This document shows, in pieces, positions 3-47,147 of a stretch of 64,000 bases of DNA. The number at the start of each line of letters is the position of its first letter. Position 1 is the stretch's first letter. The DNA lies in contig QHWB01000030.1 of assembly GCA_003222395.1 (NCBI GenBank), positions 172,221 through 236,220 of the forward strand, given 5' to 3'. Source of the DNA: Acidobacteriota bacterium. Its GTDB lineage: Bacteria; Acidobacteriota; Vicinamibacteria; Vicinamibacterales; CAVVIG01. The notes under the pieces are model-generated. The model had not been told where the DNA came from. It saw nothing but the letters and a program-made list of their open reading frames with translations, and did no database searches. The translations under genes and the position numbers were made by a program.

Positions 3-1961
3 GAACCCGACTGGCCGCAGCTGCCGGCCTCGACTCCCTCCGTCATCCGCCGCCTGCTGCAGCGCTGCCTCGAGAAGGATCCGAAACGCCGCCTCCGCGA
101 CATCGGCGACGCACGCTTCGATATCGACGATGCGACCGAGCAGCCCACGACGAGCCGGGCCGCGATCGCCTCGACGCGAGACGCCACACGCAGGGTGCTC
201 CGATGGATGTTGCCGGCGCTTGTCGCGATCGGTGTCGCCGCCGCGCTCGCGCTCCGCTTCGCGCCGTCGGCGCCGCTGAGAGACGTGACGCGGTTTACGG
301 TACCAATGCCGCAAACGCTGCAGCTGATCGACATGATGGCGCTGTCGCCCGACGGCCGCGCGCTCGTCTATACCGGCGTCGACGACGGCGGACGGCGGCT
401 GTACAAGCGCACCGTGGACACGATCGAGTCCGTGCCGATTCGAGGCGCCGAGGGAGGATCGCATCCGTTCTTCTCGCCCGACGGCGTGTCGGTGGGCTTC
501 GTTGCGAACGGCGATCTGAAGCGCATTCCGCTCGACGGCGGCGATGCGACGACCGTCGCCAAGAACGTTGACCGGTTGTCCGGTGGGGCCTGGCTGTCCG
601 ACGGCACCATCGTGTTCGCATCGCCCAACAAAGGTCTCTCGCGCGTTCCGGTGACGGGCGGCGCGATCGAAACGCTCACGACGATTGAACGTGGGGAGAT
701 CAGGCACTCATCGCCGGCCGGCGTCGACGGCAATCGTGCCGTCCTCTTTACTGTCCATACCGGCGCCCGCGACGGCTTGCGCGTCGACGTCGTCTCGCTT
801 CAGACCGGTCAGCGCACGGCTCTGCTTCAAGGCAACGGCGCGCACGCTCTGCGTTCGGGACGTCTCCTGTTCGAGCGCGGCGGATCGCTCTGGGTGGCGC
901 CGTTCGATAACCGTCGCCTGAGGGTTAACGGCCCTCCGGTGGTGGTGTTCGACGGTATCGCCGTCGGCGAGAGCTGGAGTCCTCTCATGGCGATTGGGGC
1001 CGATGGCTCTCTGGCGTACGGAACCGGAGGGCGTCAAAGGTTCGGGATGAGAAAGCTGGTCTGGGTCGATCGGAGCGGACACGAACAGCCCATCGATGCG
1101 CCTTCGCGAATGTGGGTGTGGCCGCAGATTTCACCCGACGGCAGGCGCCTTGGTCTCCACTTCCACGATCCCGTCAACATGGATGCGTGGATCTATGAGC
1201 TCGATCACGGCCCGCTCGTTCGCGTCACGTACGATCCGGCTCAGGACGGCTATCCGTTATGGAGTCCTGACGGCTCGCACATCGCCTTCTGGTCGCGCCA
1301 GGGCGGCGGCGCGCACAATCTCTACCTGCGCGCCGCGGATCTGTCCGGACGCGACGAACGATTGACGACGAGCGTCGACGATCAGGAGCCGTTCTCGTGG
1401 TCGGGAGATGGCAAGCTGCTCGTCTATCACGAGCGCTCGCGCGACACCGGCATGGACATCGGCACGGTTTCGATCGCCGGAGAACACCGCGCTCAGCTGG
1501 TCATTCGCGGGCCGGCCGACGAGGCGCGTCCCGCGGTTTCGGCCGATGGACGCTGGATCGCGTATCAGTCGAATCTGTCGGGACGCTGGCAGGTGTACGT
1601 CCAGCCGTTTCCCGAGCTCGACGCTCGCTGGCAGATCTCGACCGAAGGCGGCGCGTCGCCCACGTGGAGCAAGGATGATCGAGAGCTGTTCTATCGCCGC
1701 GGCAATGCGATGATGCACGTGCCGATCGATGCCGTCGGGCGCGGCTTCAGATTCGGAACTGCGAACGTCCTGTTCGAGGGACCATACGTTGCTGAGGAAG
1801 ACAGCCTGCAGAGCGCACGCAACTACGCCGTCGCTCCGGACGGGCGACGATTCGTGATGATCAAAGACGACGACCGCCGCGATCGCGAGTCGGCGGCCTC
1901 GCAGATCGTCGTCGTCCGTAATTGGATCGCCGAGCTCGAGCGCTCATCCGCGCGTCAGTAA
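3..1961 (+). CDS. Serine/threonine protein kinase with PD40 (TolB-like) propeller, 5'-truncated by window edge
   Basis: The reading frame is already open at base 3 and the true start lies upstream. The first ~45 codons match the end of a Hanks-type kinase C-lobe, including the 'RCLEKDPKRRL' signature that closes these domains. A single membrane helix follows (about codons 68-85, 'LPALVAIGVAAALALRF'), then ~550 residues with repeated PD40 motifs such as 'LSPDGRALVY', 'WSPDGSHIAFW' and 'VSADGRWIAYQS'. This is the common acidobacterial layout of a cytoplasmic kinase tethered to an extracytoplasmic beta-propeller that may sense a ligand. The substrate cannot be told from sequence. The downstream neighbour is convergent. 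Confidence 0.93.
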   Translation, partial: EPDWPQLPASTPSVIRRLLQRCLEKDPKRRLRDIGDARFDIDDATEQPTTSRAAIASTRDATRRVLRWMLPALVAIGVAAALALRFAPSAPLRDVTRFTVPMPQTLQLIDMMALSPDGRALVYTGVDDGGRRLYKRTVDTIESVPIRGAEGGSHPFFSPDGVSVGFVANGDLKRIPLDGGDATTVAKNVDRLSGGAWLSDGTIVFASPNKGLSRVPVTGGAIETLTTIERGEIRHSSPAGVDGNRAVLFTVHTGARDGLRVDVVSLQTGQRTALLQGNGAHALRSGRLLFERGGSLWVAPFDNRRLRVNGPPVVVFDGIAVGESWSPLMAIGADGSLAYGTGGRQRFGMRKLVWVDRSGHEQPIDAPSRMWVWPQISPDGRRLGLHFHDPVNMDAWIYELDHGPLVRVTYDPAQDGYPLWSPDGSHIAFWSRQGGGAHNLYLRAADLSGRDERLTTSVDDQEPFSWSGDGKLLVYHERSRDTGMDIGTVSIAGEHRAQLVIRGPADEARPAVSADGRWIAYQSNLSGRWQVYVQPFPELDARWQISTEGGASPTWSKDDRELFYRRGNAMMHVPIDAVGRGFRFGTANVLFEGPYVAEEDSLQSARNYAVAPDGRRFVMIKDDDRRDRESAASQIVVVRNWIAELERSSARQ

Positions 1962-1988
1962 ACCTCGCCAGTAACCTGGAGTCCTGCG

Positions 1989-3428
1989 CTACCTGAGCGG
2001 CGCTGCGTCAACGCGAGCGGCTTGCGTGATTAAGCGCTTTCGCCGTTTCGCGTGTTCGCGTTGTTGTGGCTGGTTCTCGGCCAGAACCATCTCGAGCACC
2101 GGCAACATCATTCCCGCCCGCTTCGCTCGGATGATCAGATCCCAAAGCGGCTCGAACTTCTTCCATCCCGCCGCGTACGCGGCATGCCGCAGGCCCGCGA
2201 CGACATCGCCGTGCGCACACGCGCCGCGGGCAATCGATCGCCACCGGTAGAAGTCGCGATACGCGCGCCGGTATCCGCGTTCCAGCTCCTCGCCCGACAT
2301 GCGGGCGGGACGAAACACCGCGTGGCGGGTGTCGTACCGATCCCAGTTGTGCACGACGATGCGCCCCTGCGCCTCGAGTCGGCGATGAAGCGCGGTGCCC
2401 GGGTACGGCGTCAGGATGTGAAACGTCGCGGTCTCGATGCCGTGATCGATCGCCCAGTCGACCGTCTGTCCGAACACGGATGCATCGTCGTTATCCATGC
2501 CGAAGACGAAGCTGCCGTTGATCATCACGCCGAGATCGTGCAGGCGGCGAATCGCATCGCCATAATCGCGCCGCAGGTTCTGGTACTTGCGCTGCTCCAG
2601 CAGATTCCGGTGGTCGAGTGTTTCGAAGCCGACGAACAGGCTGCGGAGTCCTGAATCGACGGCCGCCTCCAGAAGGCCGGACGACGACACGACGGCGTTC
2701 ACCGTTCCGGCGGCCTGCCACAGGCGGCCCATGCCGCGCATGCCGTCGAACAGCGCCGTCGCGAACCGCCGATCGCCGAACAGATGATCGTCGAGAAAGT
2801 ACAGATGGCGCCCGGGCAGACGTTCGATTTCTGCGAGCGCGGCGTCGACGGTCTGGGTGTAGAACGAGCGTCCGCCTTCGAAGAACGCTTCCTTGTAGCA
2901 GAAGTCGCACACGTGCGGGCAGCCGCGCGACACCACGATGGAGTTCGGCACGAGATAGAGGCGGCGTTTGATGAGGTCGCGCCTGATTGGCGGGATGCCC
3001 GCCAGCGTACGCACGCGCGACTGATAGACGCGCCCGGCGCAGCCTCGCCGAAAATCGGCGAGGAACGCGGGCCAGGTGTCCTCGCCCGGTCCGAGAAAGA
3101 TCGTATCGGCGTGCCCGGCCGCTTCTTCGGGCAGTGACGTGACGTGAAGGCCGCCCAGAGCGACGTGCGCGCCCTTCGCGCGATAGTGATCGGCGATGCG
3201 ATACGCGCGATACGCGGACGTGATGTAGACCTGAATGACGACGAGGTCCGGCGTCCCGTCGAGGTCGAGCCGCTCCACGTGCTCGTCCTGGATCTCCACG
3301 TGGTCGTCATCGCGAAGATATGCGGCGAGCGTCGCCAGGCCGAGCGGCGGGAAGAGCGAATACTTGATGGGACGCCAGAATGCGCTCGTCGCCTCAGTGA
3401 GCGCCGGCAGGATCATCTTGACGTTCAT
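1989..3428 (-). CDS. B12-binding-domain radical SAM protein
   Basis: This 479-residue protein carries a radical SAM cysteine motif CxxxCxxC at C170, C174 and C177 ('SRGCPHVCDFCYKE'). The preceding ~150 residues resemble a cobalamin-binding Rossmann domain ('LGGLHVTSLPEE', 'FLGPGEDTWP'), although no clear DxHxxG was seen. Later motifs 'FVGFETLD', 'INGSFVFGMDNDD' and 'TPYPGTALHRRL' are typical of the Elp3/MiaB-like TIM barrel in B12-radical SAM enzymes, which methylate or rearrange small molecules, lipids or cofactors. The substrate is unknown. Its start overlaps the stop of the upstream YjbQ gene by four bases (ATGA), so translation is probably coupled. No RiPP or tetrapyrrole genes sit nearby to hint at a pathway. 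Confidence 0.88.
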   Translation of the reverse strand: MNVKMILPALTEATSAFWRPIKYSLFPPLGLATLAAYLRDDDHVEIQDEHVERLDLDGTPDLVVIQVYITSAYRAYRIADHYRAKGAHVALGGLHVTSLPEEAAGHADTIFLGPGEDTWPAFLADFRRGCAGRVYQSRVRTLAGIPPIRRDLIKRRLYLVPNSIVVSRGCPHVCDFCYKEAFFEGGRSFYTQTVDAALAEIERLPGRHLYFLDDHLFGDRRFATALFDGMRGMGRLWQAAGTVNAVVSSSGLLEAAVDSGLRSLFVGFETLDHRNLLEQRKYQNLRRDYGDAIRRLHDLGVMINGSFVFGMDNDDASVFGQTVDWAIDHGIETATFHILTPYPGTALHRRLEAQGRIVVHNWDRYDTRHAVFRPARMSGEELERGYRRAYRDFYRWRSIARGACAHGDVVAGLRHAAYAAGWKKFEPLWDLIIRAKRAGMMLPVLEMVLAENQPQQREHAKRRKRLITQAARVDAAPLR

Positions 3429-3871
3429 CGCGCCCGCTCACCGAAAATCGCGACCGAAATCTCGCGCCTGCGCGGACCGTCGAGCTCGACGACGAACACG
3501 CGCTGCCACTGCCCGAGCCGCAGCCGGCCGTCGACGACGTTCAGGCAGGCGGAGGGCGCGAGGAGCAGCGCCTGACAGTGCGCGTGACCGTTGACGCGCT
3601 CGCCGGCGGTCAGGTTGACCGTTCGGACCGCCGTATCGTCGTGCCGGTAACTGGCCTGGCGCGGCGCCGTCTTCTCGAGCAGCGTCGCGAAGTCGGCTAG
3701 CAGCAGAGGTTCGTGCTCGTTGACGATGATGCCGAGCGTCGTGTGGAGGCTCTGCACGTTCAGCAGGCCGGTGCGAACGCCGGACATCGCGACGAGCGAA
3801 GCCAGCCGGTCGGTCAGATCGATGAACTCGGTCGGACAACTGGTCTCGAGACGGATGGTCGTATGCTCCAT
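3425..3871 (-). CDS. YjbQ family protein (UPF0047, secondary thiamine-phosphate synthase type)
   Basis: This 148-residue protein matches the compact YjbQ/UPF0047 fold over its whole length. Family signatures include 'GLLNVQSLHTTLGIIVNEHEP', 'YRHDDT', 'NGHAHCQALLLAPSACLNV' and 'GQWQRVFVVELDGPRRR'. The conserved His and Glu residues of 'LHTT', 'NEHE' and 'GHAH' are present, so it should be active. Some YjbQ members have weak thiamine-phosphate synthase activity, but the physiological role is not settled. It is the first gene of a two-gene unit: its TGA overlaps the ATG of the radical SAM gene, which makes a shared pathway plausible. Confidence 0.92.
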   Translation of the reverse strand: MEHTTIRLETSCPTEFIDLTDRLASLVAMSGVRTGLLNVQSLHTTLGIIVNEHEPLLLADFATLLEKTAPRQASYRHDDTAVRTVNLTAGERVNGHAHCQALLLAPSACLNVVDGRLRLGQWQRVFVVELDGPRRREISVAIFGERAR

Positions 3872-3941
3872 GACCCCAGCATGGCCGCCGACCGCGCAAG
3901 AGTCTTGAGCAACACGTGAGCATCGCGTGAGATGTGCGTGA

Positions 3942-5300
3942 TCAGCGGCGGTAGGTCAGGCCGAGCGCCAGGCCGAGGCCGAACACCGCACCCTCGCCGG
4001 CCGCGATGACGGCGCGCGACACGGGACCGAAGTTGGACTCGCCGACGAGGCGGCCGAGCGGATTCAGCGTCGCCTTCGATCCGGCCGACGCCTGCGCAAT
4101 CGCGTGAATCGTGCCGCCGACCAGCGGCCTTCCGGCGGCGGTCAGCAGCAGCGCAGCCAGGCCGCACGCGACGGCGGTGAGCGCCGCCATGCGTGCTCGT
4201 GCGGCGCCGCGAGGGGCCGGAAGCCCACCTTCGATCCGCGCCGTCGCGATGGCGTAGCCCAGACCGGCCGCCGCGCCGATGGCGAAACCTTCGATGCCGC
4301 CGCCGACCTCGACGCTGACGCCGACGAGCGACGCAAGCGTCGCTCCGCCAAGCCATTCGACCGCGAATCCGACGACGCCGCCGCCGATCGACGCGCCGGC
4401 GATGACAGCGAGCGTGCGCTGAGATCGCGTCACCGCCTCGGCGATCGACAATCCGGCGGCGACACCCGCGCCACCGGCGGCGCCGCAGCACCATCCGATC
4501 ACGGCAAGCACGGCGGCGAGCGCAAATGGCGCGGCGCTGCCGGGAAGCGCGGCGAGAATCACCCCACCGATGGCGCCTGCGGCCGCGCCGGCGAGACCGG
4601 CGCCCACCGATGCGCCGGCCCACCGCCCCGCGACGATTCGCGCCGCGCGGCGCAGTCGCAGCCGCACGAGAGCCTGCGCCGTCGCTACCGGCGCCGGCTC
4701 GCTCAGAATCGGAACGCTGCCGGCGCCGGCCGATTCCCAGCGCGAATCGCGAAGCAGCGCGCGCGCGGACGCGTGACCGGGACGAGAGCCAAGACGTCGC
4801 AGCGCTTCGGCGGTCCCCATCGCGTGCAGCAGCTCGGCGGCCTCCCGCTGCTGCTCTTCTTCGTCGGCGTTGGCGGCGCGGCGCGAGATCGTCTGCAGGA
4901 GCGGTTCGAACGCATCGATCGCCCGTTCGCCCGCCGCCGGAGGCTGCGCCGCCGGCTCGCTTGACGGCCAGGACTGGTCGTCTTCCTCTTCGACGACTTC
5001 GCTGTAGACGAAACGGTACCCGTGGCGAGAAATCGTGCGAATGAACTGCGGTTCGCGCGAATCGTCGCCGAGCGTCCGGCGGATGGTTCGGATGGCCTGG
5101 CTCAACGCGCTGTCGGAGACGACGACGTCGCTCCAGACGCGGTCGAAGATGTCGCGCCGATGAGCCGCCTCGTGGCGGTGTTCGACGAGGAAGACGAGCA
5201 GATCGAAATAGCGCGGGATGAGCGGCTGCTCGCGCCCCTCGCGAACGAGCAGCCGGCGGCGCGGCGAGAGGATGAAGTCGCCGAAACGGTAGCGCGGCAC
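3942..5300 (-). CDS. Winged-helix (OmpR/CadC-type) DNA-binding protein with polytopic membrane tail
   Basis: Residues ~1-100 form a trans_reg_C winged helix ('[15 protein letters not shown]', '[24 protein letters not shown]', '[28 protein letters not shown]'), as in CadC and OmpR effector domains. Residues ~105-215 are charged, with an acidic patch and a possible helical region. Residues ~225-450 are Gly/Ala-rich and strongly hydrophobic, giving perhaps six to eight membrane segments, with no recognisable enzymatic or periplasmic sensor domain. No receiver domain is present. This implies a membrane-embedded one-component regulator. The tail is compositionally biased, so the helix count is uncertain. 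It lies 25 bp downstream of an ECF sigma-factor remnant on the same strand. Confidence 0.75.
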
Positions 5301-5325
5301 GTGCGTCAGGACGGCGAGGTCAACG

Positions 5326-5541
5326 TCATCGTCTATCGAGCTCGCGCAGCAGCCACGTTCGCGCCATCCGCCAGTCGCGCGCGACGGTATCGGGCGAGAC
5401 GTCGAGCACTTCGGCCGTCTCCTCGACGGTCAGGCCGGCAAAGAACCTGAGGTCGAGCGCGAGCAGATCGAGTGGCGCTCGTCCGGGCGCGGCCATGCCG
5501 GAATCGAGGGGCACATGAGCGGCACGCGCTCCATGTCTCAC
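5326..5541 (-). pseudogene. Remnant of an ECF sigma factor (region 4 only)
   Basis: Only the last ~48 residues are recognisable: '[38 protein letters not shown]' is the sigma-70 region 4 helix-turn-helix of the ECF group annotated as TIGR02999, common in Acidobacteria. Intact members have about 190 residues including region 2. Here the first ~20 residues ('[15 protein letters not shown]') have no family resemblance and the divergent kinase begins ~100 bp upstream, so region 2 is absent. In intact relatives such sigma genes sit beside the same kind of kinase. This copy is probably non-functional, though a truncated region-4 peptide could still be made. Confidence 0.75.
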
Positions 5542-5615: not shown

Positions 5616-5643
5616 CGCCTCCTCTCCCGGACGCGTGAGCCGC

Positions 5644-6441
5644 GTGACCTCTTCAGATCGCTTTGCGCACGTCGAGCAGCTCTATCACGCCGCGCTCGCA
5701 CGCGACGAACGCGAGCGCGCGGCGTTCCTGCGCGACGCCTGCGGCGCCGACGAGTCGCTGCGGCGCGAGCTCGAATCGCTGCTCGCCTATGCGGACGGCT
5801 CGGCCGGTTTTCTCGAAGCGCCGGCCATCGACGGCGTCGCGGCGGCAATCTTTCAATCGGACACGCCGGCGCTCGCCGGCCAGCGTCTTGGATCCTACGA
5901 GATCGGACCGCTCATCGGCGCCGGTGGAATGGGCGACGTGTATCGCGCGCGAGACACGAAGCTCGGACGCGACGTCGCGATCAAGATTCTGCCGGAGGCG
6001 TTCACCGCCGATCCCGATCGACGCGCGCGATTCGAGCGCGAAGCGCGCGCCGCGTCCGCGCTCAACCATCCGAACATCGTGACGATTCACGAGATTGGCG
6101 AAACGGATCGACATCGGTTCATCGTCATGGAGCTCGTCGAGGGCCGAACGCTGCGAGCGATGATTCCGCAGCCCTTCGATCTCGATTCGTTCGTTCGGGT
6201 GACGTCGCAGATCGTCAAAGCGCTCGCGGTCGCTCATGCTGCCGGAATCATCCACCGTGACATCAAACCGGAGAATGTCATGGTGCGCGGCGACGCGTAC
6301 GTGAAACTGCTCGATTTCGGCCTCGCGCGTCTGGCTTCCGCAGCCGGCGCACCGGCCAGCGGCATTGACGCGACGCGATCGACAAGACTCTCGACATTCT
6401 CAACATGGGCACGCCTCCTCATTGGCTGCGGATTCGGGTGA
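5644..6441 (+). pseudogene. Truncated serine/threonine protein kinase (ends just after DFG)
   Basis: From a GTG start (another GTG is at 5635) the 265-residue product begins with the usual N-terminal region of acidobacterial kinases ('[23 protein letters not shown]', '[15 protein letters not shown]'). The N-lobe is intact: glycine loop '[10 protein letters not shown]', K114 in 'VAIKIL' and E133 in helix C. The catalytic loop HRD (204-206, 'HRDIKPENV') and DFG (224-226) are present. Past '[12 protein letters not shown]' the sequence loses all resemblance and stops, so the activation segment, APE motif and most of the C-lobe are missing, as are the usual membrane helix and propeller. Phosphotransfer activity is very unlikely. 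Confidence 0.85.
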
Positions 6442-6582: not shown

Positions 6583-7983
6583 ATGAGATGGCTCGCGCTC
6601 TTGATCGCGTCAGGACTGGCAGGCATCGTCGCGGCGCCGCTTCCGGCGGGCACCACGGACGCCTACCCCGCCAATTACGTCGCGGCTACTCTCGTACAGC
6701 TCAACGACAACGGCGCGTGGTCGTGGTTCATGGATCCGCGCGTGATCGTGAACGACAGCAAACTGATCATCGGATCGGTTCGCGCGATCGGGAGCAACCA
6801 GGCCAACGTCAGCGATCCGCGCTCCGGCAACGTGGAGGTATCGATCTACGACATCGCGTCGGGCACGGCGCAGACGGTCGTGCTCCATCCGCACCTCGAG
6901 CAGGACGACCACGATGCGCCGGCATTTTACGTACGTCCGGACGGCCGGTACCTTGCGGTGTACAGCATGCACGCGCGAGAGCGGCGGATGTACTACCGCG
7001 TTTCCGAGCCGCACAATCCGCTCGCGTGGGGTCCGGCGCGCGTCGCCAACACGCCAGGAGAGGACGCCACCTACGCCGGCAACAACGCGACGTATGCGAA
7101 CCTGTTTCACATGCCGAACGGACGCCTCTACAACTTCATCCGCGCGTTCCACCACGATCCGAACTACATGTACTCGGACGATGAAGGCGAGACGTGGAAG
7201 TACGGGGGCCGCTGGCTGTACGGCAAAGGCGGCTACAGTCCGTACCTGAAATACGCGTACGACGGCAAAGGGACGATTCATTTCATCGCGACCGAAGATC
7301 ATCCCCGCAACTTCGACAACAGCCTGTATCACGGCTACGTGCGCGACGGTGCGATGTACCGCACCGACGGCACGAAAGTCGGCACGCTGAGCACGACGAC
7401 CGATACCAAGATCGCGACGTGGGACTTCACGAAGATCTACCAGGGCGATCCCGACAACGTGGCGTGGATGGTCGACGTCGAGATCGATCGGAACGATCGG
7501 CCGTACGTGCTGTTCTCGACCCAGGTTGACGGACGCGGCCTGCCGCGCGGGCAGGGCGGCATGGACCTGCGCTATCACTACGCGCGGCTGGACGCGAGCG
7601 GCTGGCACCACGAAGAGATCGCGTACGCCGGCAGGCGCCTGTACCCCGACGAGGACGACTACTCCGGGCTCGGCGCCCTCGATCCGAACGACCCCGACGT
7701 CGTCTACATCTCGACCGACGCGGATCCGGTCAGCGGCGCGCCGCTCGTGAGCGCGGCCGACAACAAACGGCACTACGAGCTGTTTCGAGGCGAACGCAGC
7801 GCCGCCGGCAAATGGACGTGGATGCCGTTCACGCGGAACTCCACGAACGACAACCTGCGGCCCGTGATTCCGAAGTGGAACGATCCGCGCACCGCCATCG
7901 CGTGGATGCGAGGCGCGTACGTCCACAACCACGGCGAATGGTACTCGGCGGTCGTTGCCGCGATTGTGCCGCCGCGCCGATGA
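6583..7983 (+). CDS. Secreted BNR_4-type beta-propeller protein (possible polysaccharide lyase/glycan-binding)
   Basis: This 466-residue protein has a short signal peptide (residues ~1-20, 'WLALLIASGLAGIVAAPLPAG'). The body matches the BNR_4 repeat family: 'WSWFMDPRVI', 'DDHDAPAFYVRPDGRYLAVYSMH', 'FHMPNGRLYNFIRAFHHDPNYMYSDDEGETW', 'GGYSPYLKYAYDG', 'IHFIATEDHPR' and 'NSLYHGY'. The conserved His and Tyr residues in these stretches resemble those of seven-bladed propeller polysaccharide lyases and related carbohydrate-acting proteins. The exact activity is inferred only. A Shine-Dalgarno-like GAGAGG lies ~10 bp before the ATG and a TAGAAT box at 6550. It is not in an obvious operon. Confidence 0.78.
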   Translation: MRWLALLIASGLAGIVAAPLPAGTTDAYPANYVAATLVQLNDNGAWSWFMDPRVIVNDSKLIIGSVRAIGSNQANVSDPRSGNVEVSIYDIASGTAQTVVLHPHLEQDDHDAPAFYVRPDGRYLAVYSMHARERRMYYRVSEPHNPLAWGPARVANTPGEDATYAGNNATYANLFHMPNGRLYNFIRAFHHDPNYMYSDDEGETWKYGGRWLYGKGGYSPYLKYAYDGKGTIHFIATEDHPRNFDNSLYHGYVRDGAMYRTDGTKVGTLSTTTDTKIATWDFTKIYQGDPDNVAWMVDVEIDRNDRPYVLFSTQVDGRGLPRGQGGMDLRYHYARLDASGWHHEEIAYAGRRLYPDEDDYSGLGALDPNDPDVVYISTDADPVSGAPLVSAADNKRHYELFRGERSAAGKWTWMPFTRNSTNDNLRPVIPKWNDPRTAIAWMRGAYVHNHGEWYSAVVAAIVPPRR

Positions 7984-39329: not shown

Positions 39330-39619
39330 TAGACCCCCTGGAATCCTCAGCGCGAGGTGTCTCGATCGGTTACGACGCCGGACGGCGTGGCGCTGGCGGC
39401 GTCGCGGTTCCTTTCGAGGATGCAAGCGACAGACCGCTCACGCCTGGCCCGGCCGGCGCGTCTCCTGCGCCTCAGCTTGCGCGACGCGCGCGGCAGCCCG
39501 TCCGTTCGCAAGCCATCCGGCGGGCCCACGAGTGTCAACGACGGACGGTCGCTCGCCGAGGCCGAGCAGGGCATGAGGCACGGCGTATTCGAGGGGATGC
39601 GGAAATTGTCGCAACGGCC
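39330..39619. other. Intergenic region with no recognised feature
   Basis: About 290 bp between the small membrane protein and the tandem duplication. The forward frame here is open but the encoded sequence (Arg/Ser-rich, 'SRMQATDRSRLARPARLL') has no family resemblance and looks like GC-driven read-through. Confidence 0.4.
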
Positions 39620-39671
39620 AGGAGGATTTGGCGTATCTGTTTCACAGGAGGATTTGGCGTATCTGTTTCAC
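39620..39671. repeat. Perfect 26-bp tandem duplication containing AGGAGG
   Basis: The unit AGGAGGATTTGGCGTATCTG plus TTTCAC occurs twice without a mismatch (39620-39645, 39646-39671) and ends at the ATG of the miniature permease gene. Each copy begins with AGGAGG, so two Shine-Dalgarno sequences are present, 20 and 46 bp from the ATG. Perfect identity suggests a recent slippage or duplication event. Confidence 0.95.
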
Positions 39672-40067
39672 ATGATTCGATCGTTCGAGATTCGCTACGC
39701 CCTGAGGCTCGTCCGGCGCCACAAAGGCTTTGCGCTCGCCGTGCTCGTGTCGACGGGGCTCGGCGTTGGCGCCACCGCCTCGATCTTCAGCCTCATCGAC
39801 GCCTTCCTGCTGCGTCCGCTGCCGGTTCCGGCGACAAATCGAGTCGTGCGCCTGACGGCGGTCACGCAGAGCAATCCCGTCGGGCTGCTGTTCACGCTCG
39901 CGTTGAGCACCGTCATCGGCGACCTGCTCAACGGCGTAAATCCTCGCGATCCGACGGTCTATGTCATTGGCACGGCGGTGTTGCTGTCAGTCACGATCTT
40001 CGCGACATATTTGCCCGCGCGCCGCGCGTCACACGTCGATCCGCAGGCGGCGCTGCGAGCTGAATGA
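39672..40067 (+). pseudogene. Miniature ADOP permease: first helix joined to last helix, middle deleted
   Basis: The 131-residue frame begins like an intact ADOP gene ('MIRSFEIRYALRLVRRHKGFALAVLVSTGLGVGATASIFSLIDAFLLRPLPV') and ends like one ('GDLLNGVNPRDPTVYVIGTAVLLSVTIFATYLPARRASHVDPQAALRAE'). Around 700 residues between ~'VRLTAVTQSNPVGLLF' and the final helices are missing and the frame is kept. Both periplasmic domains are lost. It may still insert in the membrane but cannot act as a normal permease. It lies 6 bp before the Clp-N gene. Confidence 0.9.
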
Positions 40068-42359: not shown

Positions 42360-43364
42360 TCATCTTAAGGGCGGCTTGCGTGTCTTCAACTGGCGCGCGA
42401 TGAACGCCTTGACCATTTCGCGCGCGCGGTCGGTCTGCGGACCGGGCTTGGCCACCCACTCGTGTTCGGAATCTTCGAACACGTGGAACTGACAGTCGCC
42501 GCCCGCGGCCTGATACGTCTTGACGAACTTCTCCTGAATGGACGGCAGCACGTTGTCGTCGAGGGCTCCCTGCATGATCAGGAACGGCACCAGCGTGACC
42601 TTCTCGTGCCGCTCGAGCATTTCCTGCGGATTGCTTTCGTGGATCGCGTCCCACGGATTGAAGAAGATCGTGTGGTTCTTGACCATGGCGTCGCGCTTCA
42701 GCCGCTGGGCGTTCTGGAAGCGCGCGTACGGATCGCTGATCGGCGATCGCATCGCGACGTAGGCGACGCTCGCGTCGACGTTCGGCGCTTCGGGCAGCGG
42801 AATCGCGTTGTAGCGTGGATCATACGGGCGCATCGCCAGCAGCTCGGCGACGTGACCGCCGCTCGAGCTTCCGTATACGCCGATCTTCGACGGATCGCCC
42901 TTCCACGAGGCCGCTTTCCACTTCAGCCAGCGCACGCCGTAGTTCGCGTCCTGCACGCACGCCGGGTACGGCGCTTCAGGCGCCAGCGTCATGTCGATCG
43001 CGACGACGAGCACGCCGCTCGCCGCCAGCGCGCGGTCCATCGGCTCTTCGGCGTGGCGGTCTTTGCCGTTCCAGGCGCCGCCGTGCAGATCGAGGACGGT
43101 CGGAAACGGCCCGGCGCCGCTCGGCTGATAGACGCGCGCCATCAGCATCCGCCCCGCGGAATTGCGCCGGAACTCGACCTCGCTCACCGTGATCTCGAAC
43201 TTTGCGCCCGGATCGTAGGCCGTGGCCGTCGTGGCGCCCGCCGCGGGATCGAACGCACGAACAAAACGCGAGGTCGCATCGCGCCGGACCACAGGCAGGC
43301 CGACGATGCCGAGCGCCGTCATCGTCATGAGAAAGTCTCGACGTCCGGGAGGATAGGAGCTCAT
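42360..43364 (-). CDS. Tat-exported alpha/beta hydrolase (HSL/BD-FAE-like esterase)
   Basis: The ATG at 43364 is chosen because GGAGGT lies 4-9 bp upstream. The 334-residue protein starts with a Tat signal ('GRRDFLMTMTALGIVGLPVV'). It has the oxyanion motif HGG (94-96, 'LDLHGGAWNGKDRH'), the nucleophile S167 in 'GSSSGG', and a C-terminal Asp/His pair ('QGALDDNVLP' and 'DSEHEWVAK'). This layout matches HSL-type carboxylesterases and BD-FAE-like enzymes. The substrate, probably an ester in the periplasm, cannot be predicted. Confidence 0.9.
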   Translation of the reverse strand: MSSYPPGRRDFLMTMTALGIVGLPVVRRDATSRFVRAFDPAAGATTATAYDPGAKFEITVSEVEFRRNSAGRMLMARVYQPSGAGPFPTVLDLHGGAWNGKDRHAEEPMDRALAASGVLVVAIDMTLAPEAPYPACVQDANYGVRWLKWKAASWKGDPSKIGVYGSSSGGHVAELLAMRPYDPRYNAIPLPEAPNVDASVAYVAMRSPISDPYARFQNAQRLKRDAMVKNHTIFFNPWDAIHESNPQEMLERHEKVTLVPFLIMQGALDDNVLPSIQEKFVKTYQAAGGDCQFHVFEDSEHEWVAKPGPQTDRAREMVKAFIARQLKTRKPPLR

Positions 43365-43575
43365 GCTGACCTCCATCGATTCGCGGCCATGGCCGGCGGG
43401 TCGAACGCCGCGGCCGGAGAATAGACTGCCGGGCCACAGCAGGTCCACAAGATTCGCGATGAGGTAAGCCGCGACGATTCGGCGGTCTTTTGGCGGCGGA
43501 GACGAGTTCACGAACGGACAATGTTGTGCAAAGATGTCCCGGCACAGCGCGTCGCGAATGATTCTGGAGGAACAG

Positions 43576-44172
43576 ATGCGAATTCAATTCGGAAAAACAT
43601 GTTCCGTGTGTGCGCTGACGATCGTGTGTTTGTCGACGGCCGCCAGTTCACAGACGCCGGCGCCCGCGGGCCAGGCTGCACCGCCTGCCGCCGCCAGCAT
43701 CGTGGTGGCTTCGCCGACCTACACCTTCATTCCGCTGGAAATCACCGTCAACCGGCCCGCCGCCGACGTGTGGAAGCGCGTCGGCAAGTTCTGCGACATC
43801 GGCGAATGGCTGCGCATCCCGTGCACGATCACATCGGGCAGAGACGGCGAATTCGGCGCGGTCCGTTCGGTCGCGAACGAGGTCCTGGTGGGAAAAACGG
43901 AATTGTCCTACACCTACACTCAGCCTGTGAGGGAGGGCCGGCCGTACAACCTGTATCACGGCACGCTCGAGGCGCGGCCCGTGACGGCGACCACCTCGAA
44001 GCTTGTCTACACGCTGTTCTTCGACAATTCGATGCTGGCCGATGACGCCGCGCGTGAGGCAGACAGGGCGCGACGGACCACGCAGTTCAACACCGCGCTC
44101 CAAAACATGAAGATACTTGCCGAAGGCGGCACGCTGCCGCCGGCGCCGACGCGGGGCCGCGGGCAGCACTGA
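43576..44172 (+). CDS. Secreted SRPBCC (polyketide cyclase/START-like) protein
   Basis: The ATG at 43576 follows GGAGG with good spacing. A signal peptide covers residues ~1-25 ('CSVCALTIVCLSTAASSQ') and a Pro/Ala linker follows. The SRPBCC domain runs from 'YTFIPLEITVNRPAADVWKRVGKFCDIGEWLRIPCTI' to 'LVYTLFFDNSMLADDAAREADRARRTTQFNTALQNMKIL', the usual helix-grip fold that binds hydrophobic ligands. The family includes cyclases and lipid-binding proteins; a signal peptide is less common. It is divergent from the esterase gene. Confidence 0.82.
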   Translation: MRIQFGKTCSVCALTIVCLSTAASSQTPAPAGQAAPPAAASIVVASPTYTFIPLEITVNRPAADVWKRVGKFCDIGEWLRIPCTITSGRDGEFGAVRSVANEVLVGKTELSYTYTQPVREGRPYNLYHGTLEARPVTATTSKLVYTLFFDNSMLADDAAREADRARRTTQFNTALQNMKILAEGGTLPPAPTRGRGQH

Positions 44173-44436: not shown

Positions 44437-44470
44437 GACTCCGAAAGTCTATTTCACGCAGTTCAGTCCT

Positions 44471-44527
44471 GCACCGGCTTCTCCGCGCGATCGACTGCCA
44501 GAGGTGATCGGTGACGATGGCGATCAT
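44471..44527 (-). pseudogene. N-terminal stub of a BlaR1/M56-type sensor protease
   Basis: The frame starting at 44527 reads 'MIAIVTDHLWQS', which matches the first residues of M56/BlaR1 proteins ('...DHLWQSTLF'). Similarity is lost directly after, and membrane helices and the HExxH protease motif are absent. The start overlaps the BlaI remnant's stop by ATGA, exactly as in intact blaI-blaR1 operons, which supports the assignment despite its short length. Confidence 0.65.
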
Positions 44528-44736
44528 CGGTTTTTGTCCTCCTTGGCGAGCCTGCGAAGCGTCCGCTTCGCTTCCTCGACGTCGTCGAGCGTCAGCTTGC
44601 CTGATTCAATCAGATGCGCGACGACGGGCTGAATGCGGCCGCCGAAGAAGCTGAGGAGATCGTCGATCAATCGGCGCTGCGCCGCGCTCTTGGAGATGGC
44701 CGCTTCGAAGACGTGCGCGTTGCCGATTTTCTTCAC
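44524..44736 (-). pseudogene. C-terminal half of a BlaI/MecI/CopY-type repressor
   Basis: The ~70 residues 'GNAHVFEAAISKSAAQRRLIDDLLSFFGGRIQPVVAHLIESGKLTLDDVEEAKRTL' match the dimerisation half of BlaI repressors. The N-terminal winged helix (about 55 residues) is missing, so DNA binding is lost. The only start codon is a GTG at 44736, next to the point where a PadR remnant begins on the opposite strand. The frame remains open a little further but encodes antisense PadR sequence. Confidence 0.85.
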
Positions 44737-44744
44737 GCGCTTGA

Positions 44745-44927
44745 TTCCTCTACAAGCTCGAAGAGCGCAAGTGGATCCAGGGCCGGTGGGTTGAAAAGCC
44801 GGGACAGCGCCGGCGCCGCTACTACCGCATCACCGCGGAAGGCCGTGAGGTGCCGGCGGCCCAGCGGAAGGAATGGCGGCTCTTCTTCGAGCTGATTCGT
44901 GATCTCGCAGGAGTGGGATATGCGTGA
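44745..44927 (+). pseudogene. C-terminal fragment of a PadR-type regulator
   Basis: After an in-frame TGA at 44742-44744 the frame reads 'FLYKLEERKWIQGRWVEKPG' and continues 'RRRRYYRITAEGREVPAAQRKEWRLFFELIRDLAG', the end of the ADOP-associated PadR family. The first ~50 residues of the DNA-binding domain are missing. Its stop overlaps the start of the downstream ADOP gene (ATGCGTGA), the normal arrangement of an intact PadR-ADOP operon. Confidence 0.85.
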
Positions 44928-46073
44928 TCGGCTGATGCGGCAGTGGCGGACGCTGATCCGCGAGCGCGCCAATCGCCAATGGCGCGAACTCTCGCTCGAC
45001 ACCGTTGACGAGCTCGCGTGTCATCTTTCCGAGCTGCAGGAATCGTCGACTCGTCGCGGAGCCTCCGACGAGGAGGCGCGTCAGATCGCGCTCGACGCGC
45101 TGAATGCAGCGTCGTTTCTCGAGCTCTCGAACCGGCCGCGAGCGAGGCACGGCGGGTACCTCCACGATCTCCGAGTCGCGGTCCGGCAACTGATCGGAAC
45201 GCCCGTCGTGACGACGGTCGCCATCCTGTCGCTCGCGCTCGGGATCGGCGCAAATACCGCGATCTTCTCGCTCGTCAACAGCCTCGTCCTGCGCGCGCTG
45301 CCCGTCAAGGACCCGCATCGGCTCGCGATCCTGACCGACGCCTCCGCGCAGGGGAACGATTCCTGGACGCCAATCCGATCGGTCACACGCTTCGGCGATT
45401 TCCGGCACGCGCCGACGAGGCGATCCTGGAAATCGTCGGCGTGGTCGGCGACGCCGTGTACCGGCGGCTTCGCGAACCCATTCCGCCGACCGTCTATTCA
45501 CCGGTGACGCAGCCGAGCCCTGGCCTGCCGTCGAACGAATTCAATCTCAACGTGCGCGCCGCTTCCGGATCACCAGCTCTGCTCGCGCGGAGCGTTGCGG
45601 ACGCGATCGGCGGCGTGAACCACGACCTCGCGCTCACCTTCCGACCGCTGTCGGACCAGGTCAATGCATCGCTGACGCAGGAACGGATCGTGGCGATGCT
45701 GTCGGGATTTTTCGGCGCGCTGGCGCTGCTGCTGGCCGGCCTCGGACTCTACGGTGTGACGTCGTACGCCGTGTCGCGCAGGCGTACCGAGATCGGCATC
45801 CGCATGGCGCTCGGCGCCGCTCCGGAGAGCGTGATCCGTCTCGTCCTCGCGCGCGTATCGGCGCTCGTGGGCATCGGTATCGTTGTCGGCACCGGCGTGA
45901 GCTTTTGGGCGTCGCAGTTCGTGTCGGCGCTGCTCTATGGCCTCGAGCCGCGCGATCCGGCGACGCTGGTCGGATCGGCGGGCGTTCTCGCAGCTGTCGG
46001 TGCAATGGCCGGCTGGCTGCCCGCACGTCGCGCGTCGCGCATCGACCCGGCCGAAGTCTTGCGCGATTCGTAG
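44920..46073 (+). pseudogene. ADOP permease with internal deletion and frame change
   Basis: The N-terminal part (44920 to ~45365) encodes a PadR-linked ADOP start: a helical cytoplasmic region ('RQWRELSLDTVDELACHLSELQESS') and the first helix ('TPVVTTVAILSLALGIGANTAIFSLVNSLVLRALPV'). Near 45365 similarity jumps, in a different frame, to the second periplasmic domain ('FLDANPIGHTL', 'EIVGVVGDAVYRRLREPIPPTVYSP') and the complete C-terminal membrane domain ending 'LPARRASRIDPAEVLRDS'. Roughly 400-450 central residues are lost and the two halves are out of frame. Confidence 0.9.
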
Positions 46074-46079
46074 CCGTCG

Positions 46080-47147
46080 TCACTTCGGCTGCGTCGGGAC
46101 GGCGCCTTTGCGGACCGCCTTCTGATCTCCGGCTGCGCCGCGCACCATCAGGTGCGTGACCTTCCCCTGCGCGTCCCTGACGAACTCGAAGCCGGTCGGA
46201 TTCGCCGTCGACATGAACTGCGTTTCCGACTGCTCGAGAAGCGGAAGCTTCGGCTCATTGAGGCCGCGCACGAACAACATGTCGCCGCTGGCCGTGACCA
46301 CGACCTCGCGTCCCGACGGGAGCTCATAGACTCCGGCATAGGTTGCGAGCAGCGCCGGGCTCAATCTGATCCCGCTGCCTCCGGTCATGTGAGGCGCATC
46401 CCGCTCGTTATCGCACACGTCTTCCAATAGCTCGGTATCCGGCGCCAGCAGCCGTTCCCGCTTCACGGTGATCGGCCTGGTGAACACTTTCGCATCGTCG
46501 AGCGTCATCTCGAAATCCATGTGGCCGAAATCCCGGCGCCGGAACCGTTCGGTGACGCGGAGCGATTCGGTCTGTGGATGTCCGGCGCTGTCGAGCCACC
46601 CCTTGTCGTTGAAACCGGCGGTCGTCACGACCAGCGTGTCTCCGTCCCACCGCCCGACGGAGTACCCGAACCAAGTCGGGTTGGGGTCTTTAGGAAGGTC
46701 ACGGCCATCCATGAAGACGGTTCGGTACGGGCTGTTTGGAGACTCGTACAAGATCAAGACCAACGCCGGCGTCTGGACGATCCTGGTCATGTTGAAAAAC
46801 GTGTGGAACGGAATGCTGACCGGCAGGCATTTCGCGAGCGGACTGTCCTTTCGCGAGTCGCGCACGCGCTGCAGGAACAGCGCCTCGGCCCACGGCTGAA
46901 CATCCTCGGGTTGGAGATCCTGAGCGATGTTGAAGCGGTAGAACGGGCCTGCGCCTCTCCAGACGCCGGACAGATCCGGCTTGCCGTCAGCGGTCCGCGG
47001 CGCCGGGGCGGAAAGGTTCGGCGTGCCGTCGGGCAGACGCGGCGTTCCCGGAGCGGGATAGTTCAGCCACTGTGCAGCGGCTGTCGTCGACAGAAGCGAC
47101 GCCAAGACGGCCAGGGCGGCCGCACCGGACAGGCCGAGAGATCTCAT
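46080..47147 (-). CDS. Secreted protein of unknown function (acidobacterial type)
   Basis: This 355-residue protein has a signal peptide (~1-25) and then 'WLNYPAPGTPRLPDGTPNLSAPAPRTADGKPDLSGVWRG', a motif found at the start of many paralogous secreted acidobacterial proteins. Further conserved pieces are 'MTRIVQTPALVLILYE', 'RTVFMDGRDLPKDPNPTWFGYSVGRWDGDTLVV', 'GFNDKGWLDSAGHPQTESLRVTERFRRRDFGHMDFEMTLDD'. The last ~90 residues resemble a DUF3471-like beta domain ('LATYAGVYELPSGREVVV'). The function is unknown. It is convergent with the broken ADOP gene. Confidence 0.85.
   Translation of the reverse strand: MRSLGLSGAAALAVLASLLSTTAAAQWLNYPAPGTPRLPDGTPNLSAPAPRTADGKPDLSGVWRGAGPFYRFNIAQDLQPEDVQPWAEALFLQRVRDSRKDSPLAKCLPVSIPFHTFFNMTRIVQTPALVLILYESPNSPYRTVFMDGRDLPKDPNPTWFGYSVGRWDGDTLVVTTAGFNDKGWLDSAGHPQTESLRVTERFRRRDFGHMDFEMTLDDAKVFTRPITVKRERLLAPDTELLEDVCDNERDAPHMTGGSGIRLSPALLATYAGVYELPSGREVVVTASGDMLFVRGLNEPKLPLLEQSETQFMSTANPTGFEFVRDAQGKVTHLMVRGAAGDQKAVRKGAVPTQPK

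Follow-up and report, generated by a model that had tools for sequence, protein, structure and literature searches.

Repressors of the BlaI/MecI type, together with a BlaR1 M56 sensor that carries a TIGR03435-like tail, are frequent in Acidobacteriota. The BlaR1 considered here is of this kind, an M56 sensor with a TIGR03435-type tail. A second arrangement of acidobacteria is the operon of a PadR regulator (TIGR03433) and an ADOP permease gene (TIGR03434). Bacterial pseudogenes can arise by illegitimate recombination at short repeats.

The locus described here belongs to a soil-type acidobacterium with a draft genome of 7.74 Mb in 118 contigs (99.26% complete, 2.97% contamination). Within a stretch of 64,000 nucleotides of contig C1, hereafter the window, four broken genes lie at positions 44463-46073, BlaR1 and BlaI on the minus strand and PadR and ADOP on the plus strand (Table 1). 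Like the BlaI/MecI-BlaR1 system, the locus has the C-terminal half of BlaI, both ends of BlaR1 and the same ATGA overlap of the BlaI stop and the BlaR1 start as the related locus L021, but it lacks the DNA-binding half and nearly all of the sensor. Like the PadR-ADOP operon, it has the C-terminal half of PadR overlapping the start of ADOP, the prefix domain and both ADOP ends, whereas the winged helix of PadR and about 1.55 kb of ADOP are missing and the ADOP frame is changed. Comparison with relatives showed three junctions, one inside BlaR1, one between BlaI and PadR and one inside ADOP, and at all three the sequence of the relatives continues where that of the scar stops. It is most probable that a redundant, dispensable locus decayed by stepwise illegitimate recombination, in at least three separate large deletions.

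Table 1. Features of the scar, its flanking genes and the cored ADOP genes (positions in the window)
Feature	Position	Strand	Basis or remark
Esterase, left flank	42360-43511		looks intact; relatives up to 84% DNA identity
SRPBCC gene, left flank	43534-44172		looks intact; relatives up to 87% DNA identity
BlaR1 last 10 codons, DRAEKPVQD-stop	44463-44492	-	matches 3' ends in L021 and L023
BlaR1 internal deletion junction, 4-bp TCGA	44489-44494	-	parent sites read in L021
BlaR1 first 12 codons, MIAIVTDHLWQS	44492-44527	-	start codon overlaps BlaI stop as ATGA
BlaI C-terminal remnant, DNA-binding half gone	44745-44527, stop 44526-44524	-	PF03965 and relatives
BlaI/PadR junction	44743-44748	.	codons compared with L021-L023 (BlaI) and L025-L029 (PadR)
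PadR (TIGR03433 type) C-terminal remnant, DNA-binding half gone	44748-44927	+	TIGR03433
ADOP N part: prefix domain, first membrane segment, start of periplasmic part	44920-45369	+	TIGR03434
ADOP internal deletion junction, frame-changing	about 45360-45380	+	parent sites in L063-L067
ADOP C part: end of second periplasmic domain and last FtsX domain	45370-46073	+	TIGR03434
Right-flank gene	46080-47147		orthologues in G010 and G011, 83-84% protein identity
Second cored ADOP remnant in the window	39588-40064	+	TIGR03434 4-65 and 742-803, in frame
Cored ADOPs, own genome	L266, L261/L267, L270, L271, L073, L088 and the two in the window
Cored ADOPs, other genomes	L281, L282, L287, L288, L290, L294 (G010); L017 (G014)

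Remnants of BlaI, BlaR1, PadR and ADOP

The BlaI remnant is 86% identical to its nearest relative (MNEX01000216.1) and matches the Pfam family Penicillinase_R (PF03965) at positions 53-113 of 115 (E 7.6e-7). The C-terminal dimerisation region is thus present, and the N-terminal winged-helix DNA-binding domain is absent. Codon comparison with L021-L023 placed the beginning of homology at the Ile codon 44745-44743. The PadR remnant matches TIGR03433 at positions 46-97 of 101 (E 1.2e-11); the winged helix is incomplete, and the score of 44.6 bits is below the family cut-off of 101.8 bits. The end of this remnant overlaps the ADOP start by 8 nt. The ADOP N part, which can be read against relatives as far as the SWT codons, matches TIGR03434 at positions 2-66 of 803 (E 3e-22, 78.5 bits), with a weak match to perm_prefix_1 besides. 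In a different frame, the C part matches positions 573-802 (E 5e-74, 249.8 bits). Against the TIGR03434 cut-off of 622.3 bits, these two pieces do not make a full-length gene. The family matches and the points where they break off bear out the scar described in the initial annotation, in which truncated BlaI and BlaR1 on the minus strand abut truncated PadR and ADOP on the plus strand. They confirm in particular that BlaI and PadR had each been correctly described as lacking the DNA-binding half and ADOP as having a frame-changing internal deletion.

The remains of BlaR1 consist of only its first 12 and last 10 codons, and the M56 peptidase domain is absent. After the 12 codons the frame changes, into DRAEKPVQD-stop. 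The BlaR1 3' ends in relatives read IDRAEKPVQP (L021) and IDRAEHPVED (L023), and those in L034, L040 and L037 are alike. Since both ends of the gene are retained, there is a third junction at about 44494-44489; the DNA match of the scar to genome G017 starts at 44491. In that genome, the BlaR1 beside the nearest BlaI (L021) begins MIALVADHLWQS and has its own two parts in different frames. The first parent site in L021 is CAGTCGACG and the second CATCGATCG, and the scar reads CAGTCGATCG; comparison of these sites with the scar shows that TCGA is common to both. The span between the two sites ranges in relatives from 1658 nt (L021) to 1785 nt (L023). The "BlaR1 stub" of the initial annotation is therefore a truncated BlaR1 on the minus strand, as stated, but it is made of both gene ends fused, with about 1.7 kb lost.

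Among relatives, the BlaR1 next to the nearest BlaI is whole in G010 and divided over two frames in G017. In the G006 locus (L022, positions 6820-7016 of G006:C96), BlaR1 breaks off some 20 codons in and is fused to its own tail region, and the BlaI beside it is intact. The cut point in L022 differs from that of the window BlaR1. The same BlaI-BlaR1 pair is failing in relatives as well.

An 82-aa membrane-like frame at 44436-44188 (minus strand) adjoins the BlaR1 remnant. Against this frame, Pfam gave nothing below E 0.3 and NCBIfam nothing up to E 0.01, and in the 27 genomes searched in the family the DNA matches did not exceed about 33 bp in length.

Origin of the three junctions

BlaI is matched up to 44745 and PadR from 44748, leaving at most 2 bp (44746-44747) assignable to neither gene. 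The remnants had been said to meet within about 10 bp, and the actual gap of 2 bp agrees with this. The same annotation took a single deletion or inversion as the likely cause. If an inversion had broken both BlaI and PadR, the two genes would end up joined head to head, each cut at a similar relative point, as is seen here. It predicts a reciprocal junction or orphan N-terminal halves of the two genes; neither was found among the 6 PF03965 and 29 TIGR03433 places listed for the own genome. Such halves are detectable, because one PadR N-half (63 bits), from a frameshifted gene, did appear in the TIGR03433 list. Inversion was rejected on this ground and we regard it as very unlikely. A single deletion between divergent genes would suffice for the BlaI/PadR junction and is favoured, since orphan N-halves are absent from the own-genome lists. 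The part of the claim naming one deletion therefore stands for this junction and the part naming inversion does not. One event for the whole locus is not borne out, given the two further junctions inside BlaR1 and ADOP.

The inferred ancestor would have been a divergent pair of operons, BlaI-BlaR1 on the minus strand and PadR-ADOP on the plus strand, which other DNA may have separated. One deletion would have removed the DNA-binding halves of BlaI and PadR, all DNA between them and any shared promoter region. Another would have removed about 1.7 kb inside BlaR1 at the 4-bp repeat, and a third about 1.55 kb of ADOP, from one site to another of similar motif. The parent sites, read from relatives of other genera, share 4 bp for BlaR1 (from L021) and at most 2 bp for BlaI/PadR.

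For ADOP, the sites lie 1546-1591 nt apart in five relatives (L063-L067), and about 1.55 kb is missing from the scar. Similar Asn-Pro motifs stand at both parent sites in these relatives. The N site is Trp-Thr-Asn-Pro, followed by Ile in four of the five, and the C site is Asn-Pro-Ile in two, Asn-Pro-Val in two and Asn-Ala-Ile in one. As these relatives are of other genera, their sites do not pin down the exact letters shared at this junction. Homologous recombination between similar ADOP halves was also considered and is unlikely, model positions 66 and 573 having been judged, not computed, to be non-corresponding. The best match of both the N part (residues 81-150 only) and the C part (74% identical) is L063 of genome G016. 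A flank scan with small models detected no PadR directly upstream of that gene, and the ADOPs behind the nearest PadR relatives (L026, L028 and L029) are only 34-40% identical to the scar C part. In view of these identities, the missing upstream PadR and the restricted match of the N part, the two ADOP ends could stem from two neighbouring ADOP genes, in which case the deletion would have been larger than 1.55 kb.

Every remnant piece is open in its own frame and retains its codon bias. Three large deletions, with frames open and no visible point decay, are more than slow decay alone predicts. The state of the pieces implies junctions of similar, recent age, as if one complex event, namely template switching during replication repair, had made them all together; the second cored ADOP, 4.4 kb from the scar, would also fit such an event. 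The esterase and the SRPBCC gene, however, lie between this second remnant and the scar and look intact, and no filler was recognised at the junctions. In addition, the deletions hit dispensable genes, as expected of separate events filtered by selection. A single complex event thus seems improbable. In a 19-nt inverted match (79%), probably a chance one, 42993-43011 pairs with 44477-44495, a segment that includes the BlaR1 junction.

In a draft of 118 contigs with 2.97% contamination, the contig might have been misjoined at one or more of the three junctions. Few letters are shared there, however (4 bp, at most 2 bp and few for ADOP), and three errors within 1.6 kb, each on gene ends in native orientation, are unlikely. 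Cored ADOPs also occur in a second assembly (G010). An assembly artefact is therefore quite unlikely. The open frames would also permit the remnants to act as small proteins, such as a mini-ADOP or a BlaI C-half able to poison the dimers of BlaI. The ADOP halves are in different frames, though, BlaI and PadR are without DNA binding and without starts, and the same fusion was not encountered in any relative, so that we consider retained function extremely unlikely. Under the preferred reading of separate deletions, no product of the locus would be expected to work. A promoter scan of the locus found none; with a chance expectation of 0.1 it has little power.

The stepwise reading agrees with the general picture of pseudogenes formed by illegitimate recombination in its large deletions, its few bases shared at junctions and its dispensable genes. 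There is no difference in principle, except that three deletions in 1.6 kb without visible point decay are dense. As a kind of event this is not new: the scar most probably records decay through deletions at short repeats or at none.

Related arrangements in other genomes

BlaI was searched in a collection of genome contigs, which gave 32 loci, and also in 162 genomes of the order; the search for PadR covered 40 relatives. Close relatives of the scar BlaI are distributed patchily: any match was obtained in 28 of the 162 genomes, and matches at E 1e-14 or better were found at 10 places outside the own genome. The loci contain 62 distinct BlaI copies including the scar, 56 of them with 1 kb or more available upstream. 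Apart from the scar, one of the 55 such copies faces a PadR; the flanks were scanned with small models built from few sequences, which may miss distant PadRs. In this one case (L182, positions 1821-5486 of G161:C116), an orphan BlaI faces a PadR-ADOP operon 306 bp away. No BlaR1 follows this BlaI, and the PadR is unlike the scar PadR in the retained part, apparently belonging to another subgroup. L182 shows that a divergent BlaI / PadR-ADOP arrangement exists, not that L182 is the ancestor. BlaI copies within 3 kb of an ADOP number 10, with one gene (on contig C53) counted twice. Genome G010 has PadR, ADOP, BlaI and BlaR1 in tandem (L033).

No syntenic relative with an intact divergent BlaI-BlaR1 / PadR-ADOP ancestor was found, the genomes searched being of other genera, and in none of the fetched relatives do both flanks of the scar occur together. 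Single members of the four families do occur near orthologues of the flanking genes. In L249 (positions 3239-4642 of G009:C484), the left-flank esterase orthologue lies 136 bp from a divergent PadR that is 39% identical to the scar PadR. An ADOP lies 371 bp from the SRPBCC orthologue in G053 (L247), and an ADOP end is near the esterase orthologue in G017 (L241). In G010, a BlaI/BlaR1 pair that is only distantly related (40 and 90 bits) lies about 4.7 kb from the right-flank gene (L227). One of these four places may be the ancestral neighbourhood; since the PadR, ADOP, BlaI and BlaR1 families are abundant, no conclusion is drawn from single members near flank genes.

Age of the decay and possible recurrent coring of ADOP genes

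Because the pieces are open in their own frames and keep their codon bias, the decay appears recent relative to the split between genera. Unconstrained sequence is expected to have about 0.67 of its changes at first and second codon positions. For the ADOP C part, this share was 0.39-0.51 on the branch leading to the window, against 0.28-0.58 for relatives, and the window was higher in 7 of 20 overlapping comparisons. For BlaI, with L022 as outgroup, changes at the three codon positions numbered 3, 3 and 11 in the window against 1, 2 and 8 in L021. In the own genome, where 67 of 175 ADOP candidates were scored, at least 56 ADOP places exceed the curated cut-off, and 20 PadR places exceed that of their family. 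For this reason, the loss of one PadR/ADOP set was plausibly neutral.

Other ADOP genes have lost their middle parts as well. Pairing of ADOP ends in the own genome, with 65 N-ends and 65 C-ends (150 of 186 candidates scored), gave, among the ends listed, 46 pairs spanning 2254-2550 bp and three short pairs, two of which are in the window. Another 16 N-ends and 16 C-ends were unpaired among the ends listed, in part for the reason that not every candidate was scored, and 10 of these N-ends belong to full-length genes. Cored remnants were then defined, on a profile of 883 positions built from 30 own ADOPs and among fetched loci only, as an N part plus a later part with at least 100 profile positions absent between them. 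N-only remnants were left out of the count. The fetched loci contain 15 distinct cored remnants (Table 1): 8 in the own genome, 6 in G010, where 150 of 219 candidates were scored and 20 regions fetched, and 1 in G014. Some cases have lost little or have a weak second piece, for instance L287, which lacks 128 of the 883 positions, and L282, with a second piece of 17 bits.

In 12 of the 15 remnants the N part breaks off at profile position 109-160 (all 8 of the own genome, 4 of 6 in G010, and not the one in G014), and the start of the following piece varies between 280 and 854. Positions 109-160, as read from the sequence, correspond to the end of the first membrane segment or just past it. In 12 artificially cut ADOP proteins, alignment ends tracked the true cut to within about 40 positions. 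With uniform ends the chance of 12 out of 15 would be about 5e-8, for a post hoc test on loci chosen by the authors and matches listed only; this null takes the left end at 109 or later, and remnants with shorter N parts cannot be seen. Two N-only remnants speak against the cluster, L188 (own genome) ending at 412 and L293 (G010) at 453; a third, L289, ends at 124.

Two further observations concern the same family. The second window remnant of ADOP has at its front a perfect 26-bp tandem duplication (39619-39670), a sign of recent local rearrangement. In L025 (positions 5637-6274 of G000:C117), the PadR is intact, but of the ADOP that begins within about 60 nt behind it only the final part is left, so that this ADOP too has lost most of its length.

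We put forward only tentatively that ADOP, and BlaR1, are repeatedly cored in this bacterial family with the left end at or just past the first membrane segment, through a hot spot or selection. With a hot spot, a DNA feature near the first membrane segment would promote deletion. With selection, a partial periplasmic domain would be harmful, and mainly truncations right after the membrane anchor would survive. A literature search gave no paper on ADOP decay, which does not prove its absence from print.

The single scar matters little in itself; it shows the trimming of expanded regulator-permease families in large acidobacterial genomes. The recurrent coring of ADOPs is the part that could surprise a specialist. 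If the clustering is real, the ADOP families, with dozens of copies per genome, would be natural replicates for deciding if DNA sequence sets the breakpoints of pseudogenes or selection against harmful partial membrane proteins does.
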